This document shows positions 20,197-36,509 of a stretch of DNA of 37,803 nucleotides, piece after piece (the first letter of the stretch is position 1; each line of letters begins with the position of its first letter). A model generated the notes under the pieces. The model saw only the letters and a list, made by a program, of their open reading frames with translations, was not told where the DNA came from and ran no database searches. The DNA comes from a virus. The translations under genes and the position numbers were made by a program. Location of the stretch: positions 1 to 37,803 of IMG/VR virus record IMGVR_UViG_3300036846_000471. One strand, given 5' to 3'.

Positions 20197-20655
20197 TTAG
20201 CTCGTCAGCAGCCGCTCGGCGCGCAGCCCGTGATGCCCGACCTCGACCTTGAGAGGCTGCCGCGCGGCCGGGGTGAACCCGAACTCGCGCGCCCACATGC
20301 GGACGGCAGCACTAGCGTCGCGTAGCTGCGCGACGGCCGGGTTCTTGTGCGCGAGCCCGTCACGGCCGACGAGCAGCGGCCCCGACTGGGCGACGACCTC
20401 GGCCAGCGTCACCATGAGCGCGACGGCCTCGCAGTACGCGGCCAGGCCCATCGCGTCGACGGCTTTAGCCGTGCCCATCACGGCCAGATCGGGCGCCACC
20501 CGATCCCACTCGGCGGCGGCCTTCGGCGACAACCAGGACGGCTTGCCGGGCGGCTCGTCGCGCGGCCGGGGCTCGGCGGTGTTGATCCGGTACGGCTTGT
20601 CACCCTTCAGCACCCGCAGCGCGGTCGGGGTCGGCGCTGGCCCCCGGCGGCCCAC
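20197..20655 (-). CDS. Terminase small subunit (P27 family)
   Basis: 152 residues, GTG start 2 nt inside the end of the preceding intergenic gap (TGA C GTG). The N-terminus GRRGPAPTPTALRVLKGDKPYRINTAEPRPRDEPPGKPSWLSPKAAAEWDRVAPDLAVMG is diagnostic for P27-type small terminases, followed by AYCEAVALMVTLAEVVAQSG and a C-terminal helix WAREFGFTPAARQPLKVEV. It recognises phage DNA for packaging and loads the large subunit. The large subunit is about 4 kb further along, behind an insert of unknown genes. Confidence 0.92.
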   Translation of the reverse strand: MGRRGPAPTPTALRVLKGDKPYRINTAEPRPRDEPPGKPSWLSPKAAAEWDRVAPDLAVMGTAKAVDAMGLAAYCEAVALMVTLAEVVAQSGPLLVGRDGLAHKNPAVAQLRDASAAVRMWAREFGFTPAARQPLKVEVGHHGLRAERLLTS

Positions 20656-20656
20656 G

Positions 20657-21400
20657 TCAGCCCCTCGCAGCGAACGCGCCGACGAGCGCCCACTGATGCC
20701 AGCGGAACAGAACCTCGGGGGAGCTCCACCCGGCGGCGCGGATGATCGCGGCGAGCTGGTCGCCGGTCGACGGCACGAGCACGCCGCGCAGCGCGCGCGC
20801 CTTGGCGCGGATCGCGGCATCGGATACGCCGTGCTCGGCTTTCCAGTCGTGCGAGCAGTCGGCGGCGATCTCGGCCCAGCGCGGATCGCGCGGCCGGATC
20901 TTCTCAGCGACGATCAGCGCCCCGCCCGCCGCCGCGTGCTGCCGGGCCAGCCGCAGCGCGGCGATCCGCTGCTCGGCGGCGGGCAGGAATTGCAGCACGA
21001 ACAACGCGAGCGTCAAGTCGGCCGGGTTGTGCTGGTAGGGGCCTTTCTCGACGCGTACGGCATGCGTGATGCAACGGTGGCCGGCCAGATCGGGCAACGC
21101 CCGCATGTTGGTCGCCGCGTGCTTGAGCATCGCCTCTGACTCGTCGTACAGGTCAAAGCAGATCTCGCGCTCGGGATGCCGCGCGGCGATCGCGCAGCAC
21201 GTGACGCCGGTAGCCGCGCCGAGGTCGGCGACGCGGCCCCCGGCGGGCACGAGCCAGTCGGCGGCCTCGGCAACGAGGGCCTGCATGGTGTCGTACATCG
21301 GCACCGACGCGCGCACGTGCTCGCCGAACACGTCGGCGACCTCGGGCGTGAACTGCCACGCGCCGGGGCCGAATCCCTCGGCCACGTCGGCGGCGCTCAC
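20657..21400 (-). CDS. CmoA-like class I SAM-dependent enzyme (possible carboxy-SAM synthase)
   Basis: 247 residues, the same length as E. coli CmoA, which converts SAM and prephenate to carboxy-SAM (CxSAM). By-eye alignment runs nearly ungapped: W.FTPEVADVF and ASVPMYD (CmoA: DERVAEVF, RSVPGYS), the SAM-loop ADLGAATG (YDLGCSLG), FVLQFLP..EQ (FTLQFLEPSERQ), GGALIVAEK (GGALVLSEK), HDWKAEHGVS (HDFKRANGYS), AAGW and the final HQWALVGAFA (FNFGSLVALK). CmoA Arg199, which holds the carboxylate, faces Ala201 ungapped, but Arg202 and Arg198 are adjacent. The GTG start overlaps the preceding stop by GTGA. It lies in one operon with a C5-methyltransferase. A plain methyltransferase is the alternative. 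Confidence 0.75.
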   Translation of the reverse strand: MSAADVAEGFGPGAWQFTPEVADVFGEHVRASVPMYDTMQALVAEAADWLVPAGGRVADLGAATGVTCCAIAARHPEREICFDLYDESEAMLKHAATNMRALPDLAGHRCITHAVRVEKGPYQHNPADLTLALFVLQFLPAAEQRIAALRLARQHAAAGGALIVAEKIRPRDPRWAEIAADCSHDWKAEHGVSDAAIRAKARALRGVLVPSTGDQLAAIIRAAGWSSPEVLFRWHQWALVGAFAARG

Positions 21401-21528
21401 GGCGGCCCGGCCAGCCGGATCGCGCGCGCGAGCGCGTACCGGCGCGCGGCGGTCAGATCGTGCCGCTGCTCGGCGGCGTCGTCGTCGCGCTCGGGCGCGT
21501 CGAACGGTCGCGGCTCGCTCGTCGTCAT
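21397..21528 (-). CDS. Small charged hypothetical protein between SAM enzyme and IPT protein
   Basis: 43 residues (MTTSEPRPFDAPERDDDAAE to AIRLAGPP), acidic then basic and helical. Its start follows the IPT-domain stop by 2 nt and its stop overlaps the CmoA-like GTG by GTGA, so tight coupling supports a real gene although it is very short. No family is recognised. A translational-coupling role or a small partner of the SAM enzyme are possible. Confidence 0.6.
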   Translation of the reverse strand: MTTSEPRPFDAPERDDDAAEQRHDLTAARRYALARAIRLAGPP

Positions 21529-21530
21529 GA

Positions 21531-22013
21531 TCACGTGTAGGTGAACGCGGCACCCTTGACCACGTTGCCCGCCGGGTGCTGAACGATCACGTCGACGACC
21601 CCCGCCGGGCGCGACGGTGATGTCACGGTCAGCAGCGAATCGTTATTCGCCGTGAACGCCGTGCCCTGCGCGGTGCCGAACAGCACGCCCGTCGAGCCTG
21701 CCAGCCCGACGCCGTAGATCTGGACTACCGTGCCGCCCGCGACCGGACCCCCAGCCGGGGCGATCCGGTCGACCTGCCGGGGTCCGATCGTGACGCGGAC
21801 GGTGCCGCTGTCGCCGTTCGATGCCAGCGCCCGGACCGTGAACGTCCCGTCGCCCTCGTATCGGTGCGCCGCCGACGAGCCGCGCAGCATGACCCCGCCG
21901 CCGCTCCTGTCGGCGTCAAAGTCCCACGCGAGCGCATCGGACCGGCCCGTGGTGAAGTTGACCACCCGCCGGTCCTGCGGATCGCTGACCGCCGTAACCG
22001 CAAACGTGACCAT
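21531..22013 (-). CDS. Ig/PKD-like plus IPT/TIG domain protein
   Basis: 160 residues with two beta-sandwich modules. Residues 1-78 are PKD-like (ALAWDFDADRSGGGVM, HRYEGDGTFTVRALASNGDSGTVRVTI). Residues about 82-160 are IPT/TIG-like (VDRIAPAGGPVAGGTVVQIYGVGLAGSTGVLFGTAQGTAFTANNDSLLTVTSP, then VDVIVQHPAGNV...FTYT). Such proteins are usually virion decorations or tail Ig modules, so a place between a DNA methyltransferase and a SAM enzyme is odd. The start has the best ribosome site of the region (AGGAGGTG) 6-8 nt upstream, implying strong expression. There is no signal peptide. Confidence 0.78.
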   Translation of the reverse strand: MVTFAVTAVSDPQDRRVVNFTTGRSDALAWDFDADRSGGGVMLRGSSAAHRYEGDGTFTVRALASNGDSGTVRVTIGPRQVDRIAPAGGPVAGGTVVQIYGVGLAGSTGVLFGTAQGTAFTANNDSLLTVTSPSRPAGVVDVIVQHPAGNVVKGAAFTYT

Positions 22014-22017
22014 TCGC

Positions 22018-23100
22018 TCACACCTCCTGTACTGCCATGGTGCTCAGTATCCGGTCGCGTACCGTCGCGGCTATCCGGGCCATCATCACGGGCGGCACGG
22101 CGCGGCCGATGCGCTCCCATCGCTGATCGTAACTGCCGGTCAGGATGAAGTCAGGCGGGAACCCGGCCAGCGCGCGCAGCTCGCCGAGCGTCGCGCGCCG
22201 CAGATCGAGCCGGTACGCGTCGGGCACGTCGAGCGCGCCCCGAGCGCGCGCCGCGCGGAACGCCGGGCCGACGACCAGCCCGGCCCGGTGCAGATCGCGG
22301 CCGGTCTCGGGGTCGGTGTCGGTGCCGGACGGCGCGAGCACGGCCAGCTCAGAATGAGACCCGTACCACGTCTGTATCGTCGGGCACGGCCGGGTCGGGT
22401 CCGCGATTCCCCAGCGCCAGAGCAGCCCGCCGTAACCGGGGCCGAGCGCGTCGCCGATCGTGCGCCGGTACGGCAGCGGGTCGGGGAACGCGGGCGCGAG
22501 GTCCAGGTCGTCGCGCACGCCGATAAAGATGATCCGGCGGCGCTCCTGGGGCGCGTCGAGCCACGACGCGTCGAGCAGCCGCGCCTCGACGATGTACCCG
22601 GCCGATCGCAGCCGCCGCAAGATCCGCTTAAACGTGCCCTTGGAGACGCCGCGCACGAGCCCGTACACGTTCTCAGCAACGAACACCTTGGGCCGCAGCC
22701 CCTCGACGAGCCGCGCGTACTCGTCGAACAGATCGTCGGTGCGCTGGGTCGTGCCCGAGTAGGGAACCTCCTGGCCCCAGCCCGCCGACAGCTTGCCCTG
22801 GGAGCTGAACGCCGAGCACGGCGGCGAGCCGTCGAGCACGTCGACCTCGGCCAGCTCGTCGACGGCCAGCTCGCGGATATCCCCGGTGTGCAGCACGGTC
22901 GCCGGGTCGGCGTTCGCCTGGTACGTCTCGGCGGCGGCGGGCACGAACTCGCACGCCCACGCGACGCGGAACCCGGCGAGCCGGTAGCCGGTCGACGAGC
23001 CGCCGCACCCGGCGAACGCCGAGCCGACCGACCAGCCGTTCGGCTCGGTCGCGCGGACCTCGGCCATAGTCGGCGGCGCGTACGGCGGGCGGCCGGTCAC
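22018..23100 (-). CDS. DNA C5-cytosine methyltransferase with motif X Asn-to-Arg change
   Basis: 360 residues with all main C5-MTase motifs: I FAGCGGSSTG (29-38), II CEF (50-52), IV GSPPCSAFS with catalytic Cys95, VI AENV (142-145, Glu143), VIII QERRRIIFIG, a target-recognition region of about 110 residues, IX RATLGELRALAGFPPDF and X RIGRAVPP. Motif X is normally GNAVPP/GNSV; here Arg333 replaces Asn. The equivalent Asn in M.HhaI (N304) and M.MpeI (N374) lies beside the transferred methyl group, and a basic residue there lets M.MpeI use carboxy-SAM. The GTG start overlaps the ParB-like gene by GTGA. The likely product is modified cytosine in phage DNA, methyl or carboxymethyl; target sequence unknown. 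Confidence 0.93.
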   Translation of the reverse strand: MTGRPPYAPPTMAEVRATEPNGWSVGSAFAGCGGSSTGYRLAGFRVAWACEFVPAAAETYQANADPATVLHTGDIRELAVDELAEVDVLDGSPPCSAFSSQGKLSAGWGQEVPYSGTTQRTDDLFDEYARLVEGLRPKVFVAENVYGLVRGVSKGTFKRILRRLRSAGYIVEARLLDASWLDAPQERRRIIFIGVRDDLDLAPAFPDPLPYRRTIGDALGPGYGGLLWRWGIADPTRPCPTIQTWYGSHSELAVLAPSGTDTDPETGRDLHRAGLVVGPAFRAARARGALDVPDAYRLDLRRATLGELRALAGFPPDFILTGSYDQRWERIGRAVPPVMMARIAATVRDRILSTMAVQEV

Positions 23101-23642
23101 GGCGCGGCCTTGCCTGACCATTCGTAGCCGCACGAGGGACAGCGGTGCTCGGTCGGCAGATCCTCGTCGTAGGTGCGGAACGCGTCCGGCGGCGCGGGCG
23201 TCATCGTCGCGACCAGCTCGGCGAAACGCGCCTGGGTAAACCCCGTCGCGGTGAGCTGGGCCGGCGTCGCCGCCCGGTCGCGCAGCACGTCGACGAGCGC
23301 CGCCATGTCCCACCGCGCCCGCCGCGCCCACTCGTTGTCGCCGAGCATGATCCGCTCGGCGGTGTCCTCGTCGACCTCGTACACCAGCGCGGGCAGCTCG
23401 GCGTCGCCGCCGCCGCGCTCGCGGGCGACGACCCAGCGGTGCGATCCGGCGAGTATGTCGCCGGTCGGGCCGTTCACGATCAGCGCGCCGTAGAAACCGA
23501 GCGCGTCGACCGATTCGCCGATGCCGTCGACGTCCCCACGGTTCGGGTTGCGCGGATGCGGGTGCACGTCGGCGACGCGCACCAGCTCGTAACGGTGCGG
23601 CAGCACGACCAGCGGCGCGGCGTCCGGCTCGGCGGCGGTCAC
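23097..23642 (-). CDS. ParB-like nuclease-domain protein with C-terminal zinc knuckle
   Basis: 181 residues, GTG start in a GTGA overlap. The N-terminal ParB/Spo0J-type domain shows VRVADVHPHPRNPNRGDVDGIGESVDALGFYGALIVN and GDILAGSHRWVVARERG, the usual 'l.pnp.np' and 'G..R..Aa' motifs (here GSHRWVVA), followed by a helical domain. The end has HRCPSCGYEW, a single CPSC knuckle. ParB-domain proteins next to DNA methyltransferase genes are common in actinophages and prophages. Known members act as DNA-binding CTPases or nucleases. The direct coupling here suggests co-function with the C5-methyltransferase, for example as an accessory specificity or DNA-handling factor. Confidence 0.83.
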   Translation of the reverse strand: MTAAEPDAAPLVVLPHRYELVRVADVHPHPRNPNRGDVDGIGESVDALGFYGALIVNGPTGDILAGSHRWVVARERGGGDAELPALVYEVDEDTAERIMLGDNEWARRARWDMAALVDVLRDRAATPAQLTATGFTQARFAELVATMTPAPPDAFRTYDEDLPTEHRCPSCGYEWSGKAAP

Positions 23643-35369: not shown

Positions 35370-36509
35370 ATGAGCACGCGTAGGGGCTTCGGCAAGATCC
35401 GGCGGCTACCGTCCGGCCGGCATCAGGCCAGCTACATCGGACCGGACGACGCGCGGCACAACGCGCCCGGCACATTCCAGACACGCGGCGACGCCGATCG
35501 GTGGCTCGCCGCGCAGCAGACAGCGATCGCTACCGGCACCTGGGGCCAGCCCGCCGCAGCGCCGCGCCGGTCGACGCTGCCGACGTTCGGCGAGTACGCC
35601 GAGCGCTGGCTCGCGCTGCGGACCGGCGAGGGGCTCGCGGTCGCGACCGTGGCCAGCTACCGGCGCGCGATACGCGGCCACCTGATCCCGGCGCTCGGCT
35701 CGCACCGCGTCGATCAGATCAGGGTCGCCACCGTCGCAGAGTGGTATGCGAGTTTCGGCTCGCAGCTCGGCAGCACGCGCGCCAAGGCGTACCGCGTGCT
35801 CATGGCGATCATGCACGCGGCGGTCGCCGAGGAGGTGATCGCGTCGAGCCCGTGCCAGATCAAGCGCGGCAGCGCCGAGCCGCGCCGCGCGCATCACGTG
35901 ACGGTCGCGACGGCCGAGCAGGTCGACACGGCGGCGGCGGCGATGCGGCCAGAGTGGCGGCTGACGGTGCTGCTCGCGGTGTACTGCCAGTTGCGGTTCG
36001 GCGAGATCGCCGAGCTGCGGCGGCACGACGTAGACCTCGATCGCGGCACCATCCGCGTCCGGCGCGCAATGTCGTACGTCGACGGCGAGATTACAGTCGG
36101 GCCGCCGAAGTCTGAGGCGGGCAAGCGGCTCGTGTTCTTGCCGCCGCACCTGGTCGGCGATCTGGCCGCGCACGTCGCGCAGCACGCGCGGCCGGGCCGT
36201 AACGGGCTGTTGTTCACGACCCGCGACGGCTCGCAGCTCGTAAACTCCAAGCTGCATCGCGACTGGAGCCGGGCGCGGACGGCGGCCGGGCTGCCGGACG
36301 CGCATTTTCACGATCTGCGGCATACCGGCGCGACGTGGCTAGCTCAGGAGGGCGCGACGACACGCGAGCTAATGCGGCGGCTCGGTCACTCGACGCCGCT
36401 CATGGCGATGCGGTACCAGCATCCCGAGGACGAGCGCGACGCGGCGCTCGCCGGTCGGCTGTCGCGGCGAGCCGGTGTGACGCCGCTGCGGACGGAGGGC
36501 GCGGCATGA
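35370..36509 (+). CDS. int: Tyrosine site-specific integrase
   Basis: 379 residues. An N-terminal arm-binding part (MSTRRGFGKIRRLPSGRHQASYIG, with FQTRGDADRWL) is followed by a SAM-like core-binding domain (PTFGEYAERWLALRTGEGLAVATVASYRRAIRGHLIPALG) and the catalytic domain. The catalytic residues are R209 (QLRFGEIAEL), a Lys at 247 or 252, H314-D-L-R317 (FHDLRHTGAT), H340 (LGHSTPLMAM) and the nucleophile Y349. It integrates and excises the phage genome at an attachment site. QLRFGE replaces the usual GLRxGE. It begins a rightward operon, and the next start overlaps its stop (ATGA). Confidence 0.95.
   Translation: MSTRRGFGKIRRLPSGRHQASYIGPDDARHNAPGTFQTRGDADRWLAAQQTAIATGTWGQPAAAPRRSTLPTFGEYAERWLALRTGEGLAVATVASYRRAIRGHLIPALGSHRVDQIRVATVAEWYASFGSQLGSTRAKAYRVLMAIMHAAVAEEVIASSPCQIKRGSAEPRRAHHVTVATAEQVDTAAAAMRPEWRLTVLLAVYCQLRFGEIAELRRHDVDLDRGTIRVRRAMSYVDGEITVGPPKSEAGKRLVFLPPHLVGDLAAHVAQHARPGRNGLLFTTRDGSQLVNSKLHRDWSRARTAAGLPDAHFHDLRHTGATWLAQEGATTRELMRRLGHSTPLMAMRYQHPEDERDAALAGRLSRRAGVTPLRTEGAA

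Follow-up and report, generated by a model that had tools for sequence, protein, structure and literature searches.

A predicted CmoX carboxymethyltransferase and its CmoA partner in a temperate phage genome encoding no CmoY

Published CmoX systems and the motif X arginine of the window protein

The CmoX enzyme, its characteristic arginine, its partner CmoA and its spread through phages were all published in December 2025 (PMC12783734). The structure 8YF3, reported in Nat Commun, is that of SpCmoX from Synechococcus phage S-B43 bound to carboxy-SAM (Cx-SAM); its R350 stands where M.HhaI has N304 and touches the carboxyl group of Cx-SAM, which was the sole cofactor accepted by the wild-type enzyme, and the R350N variant accepted neither SAM nor Cx-SAM (PMC12783734). 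An SPPC motif combined with the arginine was used to gather 5,615 phage CmoX sequences, ParBc proteins were described as neighbours of CmoX, and analysis of S-B43 DNA detected a glycine amide but not 5-carboxymethylcytosine (5cxmC) itself (PMC12783734). A positive residue in place of the motif X asparagine likewise permits the use of carboxy-SAM by M.MpeI N374K (PMC12783734), although that is an engineered lysine in a CG methyltransferase whereas the residue considered here is an arginine in a natural phage enzyme.

The window, by which is meant the whole 37,803-base IMG/VR virus record that was analysed, encodes on its minus strand (22018..23100) a protein of 360 aa that is assigned here to the CmoX-type DNA cytosine C5-carboxymethyltransferases. 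The reading frame is open along its full length, the product matches Pfam DNA_methylase PF00145 (6.4e-46) and TIGR00675 dcm (1e-42), and the core motifs are kept, with motif IV (GSPPC), the ENV motif and the QERRR motif all intact. Read on the minus strand, the codon at 22104..22102 is CGC (context RWERIGRAVPPVMM) and gives the arginine of motif X, RIGRAVPP; it is residue 333 when the GTG at 23100..23098 is taken as the start, a codon that shares bases with the stop of the ParB-like gene upstream (GTGA). A reading of the sequence only had singled out this residue, observing that at least two base changes separate CGC from an asparagine codon (AAC/AAT), that a sequencing error was therefore unlikely and that the enzyme was not decaying, and each of these points was borne out. 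Arg333 is kept in relatives found in other metagenomes (L001, L002, L004 and L015, at 71-76% identity) and so is no sequencing accident; with the frame and catalytic motifs intact as well, both sequencing error and decay could be ruled out as its origin. All 16 aligned homologues but one carry the arginine, the exception (L014) having asparagine.

The best PDB match of the protein by sequence was 8YF3 (1.1e-46; the runner-up, M.HaeIII, gave 6.7e-26), and the same entry was the best fold match (1.6e-23) of its AlphaFold model (mean pLDDT 83.3). Identity to the characterised SpCmoX is only ~38% and the target-recognition region differs, yet the two share the C5-methyltransferase fold, the SPPC motif, the motif X arginine, the cofactor contacts that were tested and a CmoA neighbour. 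In the alignment R333 falls on SpCmoX R350, and the identical positions (SpCmoX/window) are F25/F29, E47/E51, F48/F52, D69/D74, C98/C95 and R350/R333; the first four of these are the residues that surround Cx-SAM. The arginine and the conserved pocket are matters of direct observation, as are the neighbouring CmoA, the tight association of the two and the absence of CmoY. The window protein thus has both the SPPC motif, with C95 in GSPPC, and an arginine at the R350 position, the two features by which the published CmoX sequences were gathered. The implication of the sequence-only reading that the arginine recruits carboxy-SAM over SAM is supported and equals the published SpCmoX mechanism, and in the solved homologue 8YF3 the arginine points at the cofactor rather than away from it, the alternative that had been raised. 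The replacement was real, but it had been presented as unexplained, which since December 2025 it is not (PMC12783734). The class is already published, and the window is a further case of it in a ligase-free, temperate setting.

CmoA and its co-occurrence with the arginine

The predicted carboxy-SAM synthase of the window is a CmoA homologue of 247 aa (20657..21400, minus strand), beginning at a GTG that shares bases with the stop codon of a small ORF (GTGA). It matches phrog_4752 (5.6e-51) and TIGR00740 (3.9e-27), the latter at 95.5 bits and so below the curated cut-off of 193.3 bits, where the further CmoA homologues tested, from phages and host genomes, also fell; its top PDB folds are 4IWN and 4GEK (TM 0.82-0.84), with 1IM8 also found. 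In fold and overall sequence it resembles E. coli CmoA (4GEK, 4IWN; PMC3663124), but no CmoB partner was seen in the window, and at the position of E. coli Arg199, a residue described as binding the carboxyl group through a salt bridge (PMC3663124), it has alanine, with an arginine four residues on (203 in that numbering), about one helical turn later. Since the demonstrably active SpCmoA combines Glu at 199 with Arg at 203, this shift need not count against activity. Most phage CmoAs (L001-L144, L281-L355 and the window) lack an arginine at the Arg199 position: in one group residue 203 is the Arg, and a second group shows KELSLxGxQRP, its Arg lying near 208. The carboxyl-binding arginine of phage CmoAs may have moved.

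Comparison of arginine enzymes with CmoA homologues had been proposed along with the sequence-only reading. IMG/VR was scanned for DNA encoding IGRAVPP and IGNAVPP, C5-enzymes were called with HMMs, and CmoA was sought in the fetched fragment. CmoA was present with 48 of 52 IGRAVPP enzymes and with none of 110 IGNAVPP enzymes (Fisher p 1.6e-31 for 48/52 vs 0/79), and after removal of near copies, among sequences recognised by the CmoX HMM, with 30/33 Arg vs 0/70 Asn. One of the four Arg exceptions has a CmoA elsewhere on its own contig. A further 39 of the 91 IGRAVPP ORFs in the pattern scan were not C5-enzymes; these chance motif matches were set aside and support no conclusion. GTDB bacterial genomes gave a similar picture, with CmoA within 8 kb of 34/38 Arg enzymes vs 0/36 Asn enzymes, counts in which four Arg and four Asn cases were read by eye and from which four Met enzymes and two truncated ones were left out. 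Two of the GTDB Arg exceptions stop at a contig edge (L290, L322), one lies on a 6-kb contig carrying CmoY (L292), and for the last CmoA is on another contig of the same MAG (L358). No CmoA was found in the two genomes with Asn homologues that were examined whole. In these samples, then, the arginine is nearly always accompanied by CmoA and the asparagine never, and the many GRAVPP enzymes lacking a source of carboxy-SAM that would have spoken against the earlier reading did not appear. These data back the published arginine rule and add an asparagine control to it.

A caveat is that the association, although very strong, rests on few evolutionary events. Parsimony on the tree requires only two changes between Arg and Asn, so that the co-occurrence does not represent many independent events; repeated switching between the two residues was considered and rejected, and a single Arg clade was not rejected (AU p 0.196). 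Close CmoX homologues with SPPC but a motif X Asn, and without CmoA, were found in Acidobacteriota and one Planctomycetota MAG (L289, L291, L296, L312, L315 and L317), most with a ParB neighbour. Four of these Asn-type homologues were placed in the tree and fall within the Arg clade, subject to the same AU result, which suggests a natural reversion to the use of SAM.

The window gene is very probably a CmoX that makes 5-carboxymethylcytosine in phage DNA from carboxy-SAM, with its partner CmoA supplying the cofactor. The phage CmoA would convert SAM and prephenate to carboxy-SAM, Cys95 would attack C6 of cytosine, and the C5 carbanion would take the carboxymethyl group from carboxy-SAM while Arg333 held its carboxylate; the product, 5cxmC, would shield phage DNA from host restriction. 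We infer this activity and biological role, as we do the target sequence and the final base, and if they are right then an unusual base in DNA can be predicted from a single residue of a protein. In overall fold and motifs the protein resembles C5-methyltransferases, which would suit an ordinary SAM-using enzyme in which a change from Asn to Arg is tolerated, but the whole clade keeps the arginine, whose occurrence follows that of CmoA, and SpCmoX with the same residue accepts Cx-SAM only, making this very improbable. Still less credible is a degenerate enzyme, inactivated by the arginine and encoded by a drifting gene: the position is sensitive, with the natural arginine of SpCmoX and the asparagine of R350N not interchangeable, but in the window the catalytic motifs and the pocket are intact, the arginine is kept in the relatives of 71-76% identity and the partner gene has been kept with it.

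The distribution of CmoA also bears on why a phage should carry it. Streptomyces and Nonomuraea genomes with CmoX have one CmoA-like gene genome-wide, except for G019, which has two, and none was found in the control genome of Corynebacterium glutamicum. This is in line with the CmoA beside CmoX being the sole source of carboxy-SAM in those Streptomyces and Nonomuraea genomes. Of seven Arg-type genomes searched in full, six held a single CmoA, so that the phage seems to supply its own copy. The probable hosts of the window phage would thus not supply carboxy-SAM, and their apparent lack of a CmoA of their own would explain why a phage carries a gene for the cofactor.

CmoY and the final base

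The published system comprises CmoA, CmoX and CmoY, the last an amide ligase of the asparagine synthetase family, and CmoY is present in S-B43, PaBG and TurkishDelight. None was found in the whole window record or in its syntenic relative G001 (Asn_synthase, PF00733), nor in the loci of other close relatives, and an HMM built from three CmoYs revealed none either; on these searches a missed CmoY was rejected. Among the 52 Arg loci from IMG/VR, 24 have CmoY in the fetched stretch and about half are without it.

In the absence of a CmoY gene, free 5cxmC is most likely the lasting base of the window phage, which is therefore a candidate for a genome with free 5cxmC, the known follow-on ligase being absent. 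More broadly, it is about an even call whether there is a branch of temperate actinobacterial phages with CmoA and CmoX but no amide ligase, in which free, negatively charged 5-carboxymethylcytosine would be the finished base and not an intermediate. Less likely, CmoX is genuine but some unrecognised enzyme of the phage or its host modifies the carboxyl group further, so that the final base would be an ester or amide of 5cxmC. Many phages carry CmoX together with CmoY ligases of several types and several genes of the window have no family match, both of which would allow for such a step; against it stand the lack of an Asn_synthase domain in the window and G001, the CmoY-free loci of the other close relatives and the restriction of CmoY to less than half of the Arg loci (24/52, fetched stretch). 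No other hypermodification gene emerged when the rest of the window ORFs were compared with PHROGs and Pfam, those ORFs being structural, replication, recombination, lysis, HNH or integrase genes or having no match.

The modification operon and its phage

The operon lies on the minus strand and begins with a ParB-like protein (23097..23642; phrog_723, 2e-28). CmoX follows, and between it and CmoA are a protein with TIG/IPT and PKD domains (21531..22013; PF01833 1.8e-08, PF00801 5.1e-05) and the small ORF of 43 aa, read from the sequence (21397..21528), whose stop overlaps the CmoA GTG. Directly downstream of CmoA is the terminase small subunit (20197..20745; PF05119 3.2e-21, phrog_83 2.2e-32). 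The TIG/PKD gene is absent from this position in close relatives and has no match in G001. CmoX is near CmoA in the relatives TurkishDelight, S-B43 and PaBG. Genes 122-125 of Streptomyces phage TurkishDelight have a similar order, ParB-CmoX-...-CmoA, with identities to the window of about 52% for CmoX and 60% for CmoA, but a CmoY of the glutamine-amidotransferase type stands between CmoX and CmoA where the window has the TIG-domain gene. From S-B43 the window phage differs in having ParB and TIG genes in its operon and no CmoY, and it is a small temperate phage where S-B43 is a large cyanophage, which places the CmoX system in small temperate phages.

The phage genes of the window comprise an integrase, a RecT-like protein, an exonuclease, portal, large terminase, major head and tail proteins, a tape measure and an endolysin, and together they mark the record as that of a temperate tailed phage, the temperate habit being shown by the integrase, which is of the tyrosine type (35370..36509, plus strand; PF00589 4.5e-23, phrog_1 2.2e-59). 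The relative G001 (37,801 bases) is syntenic with the window but circularly permuted, and both records are therefore probably near-complete genomes. The host is probably a member of the Actinomycetota, because the G+C content is 72% and the closest bacterial homologues are from Streptomyces and Nonomuraea.

Related CmoX-CmoA-ParB loci were also found repeatedly within single Verrucomicrobiota MAGs, six in one (L295, L298, L302, L303, L306 and L308) and five in a second (L299, L300, L309, L311 and L314). Exonuclease, DNA polymerase, primase/helicase, terminase and portal genes surround L308, and because of these the loci look like prophages. The order ParB, CmoX, CmoA, terminase small subunit is common to the window (20197-23642) and the Verrucomicrobiota prophages (L308:6951-10643), and may tie modification to the packaging stage.

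Composition did not reveal the target site of CmoX, GC dinucleotides not being depleted in the window (5568 seen vs 4914 expected from base composition). GATC is over-represented over the whole window, with 336 copies where dinucleotide shuffles predict 205 (sd 12), an excess that probably reflects codon usage. The protein encoded at 1392-2495 has a long collagen-like Gly-X-Y stretch and is probably a tail fibre.
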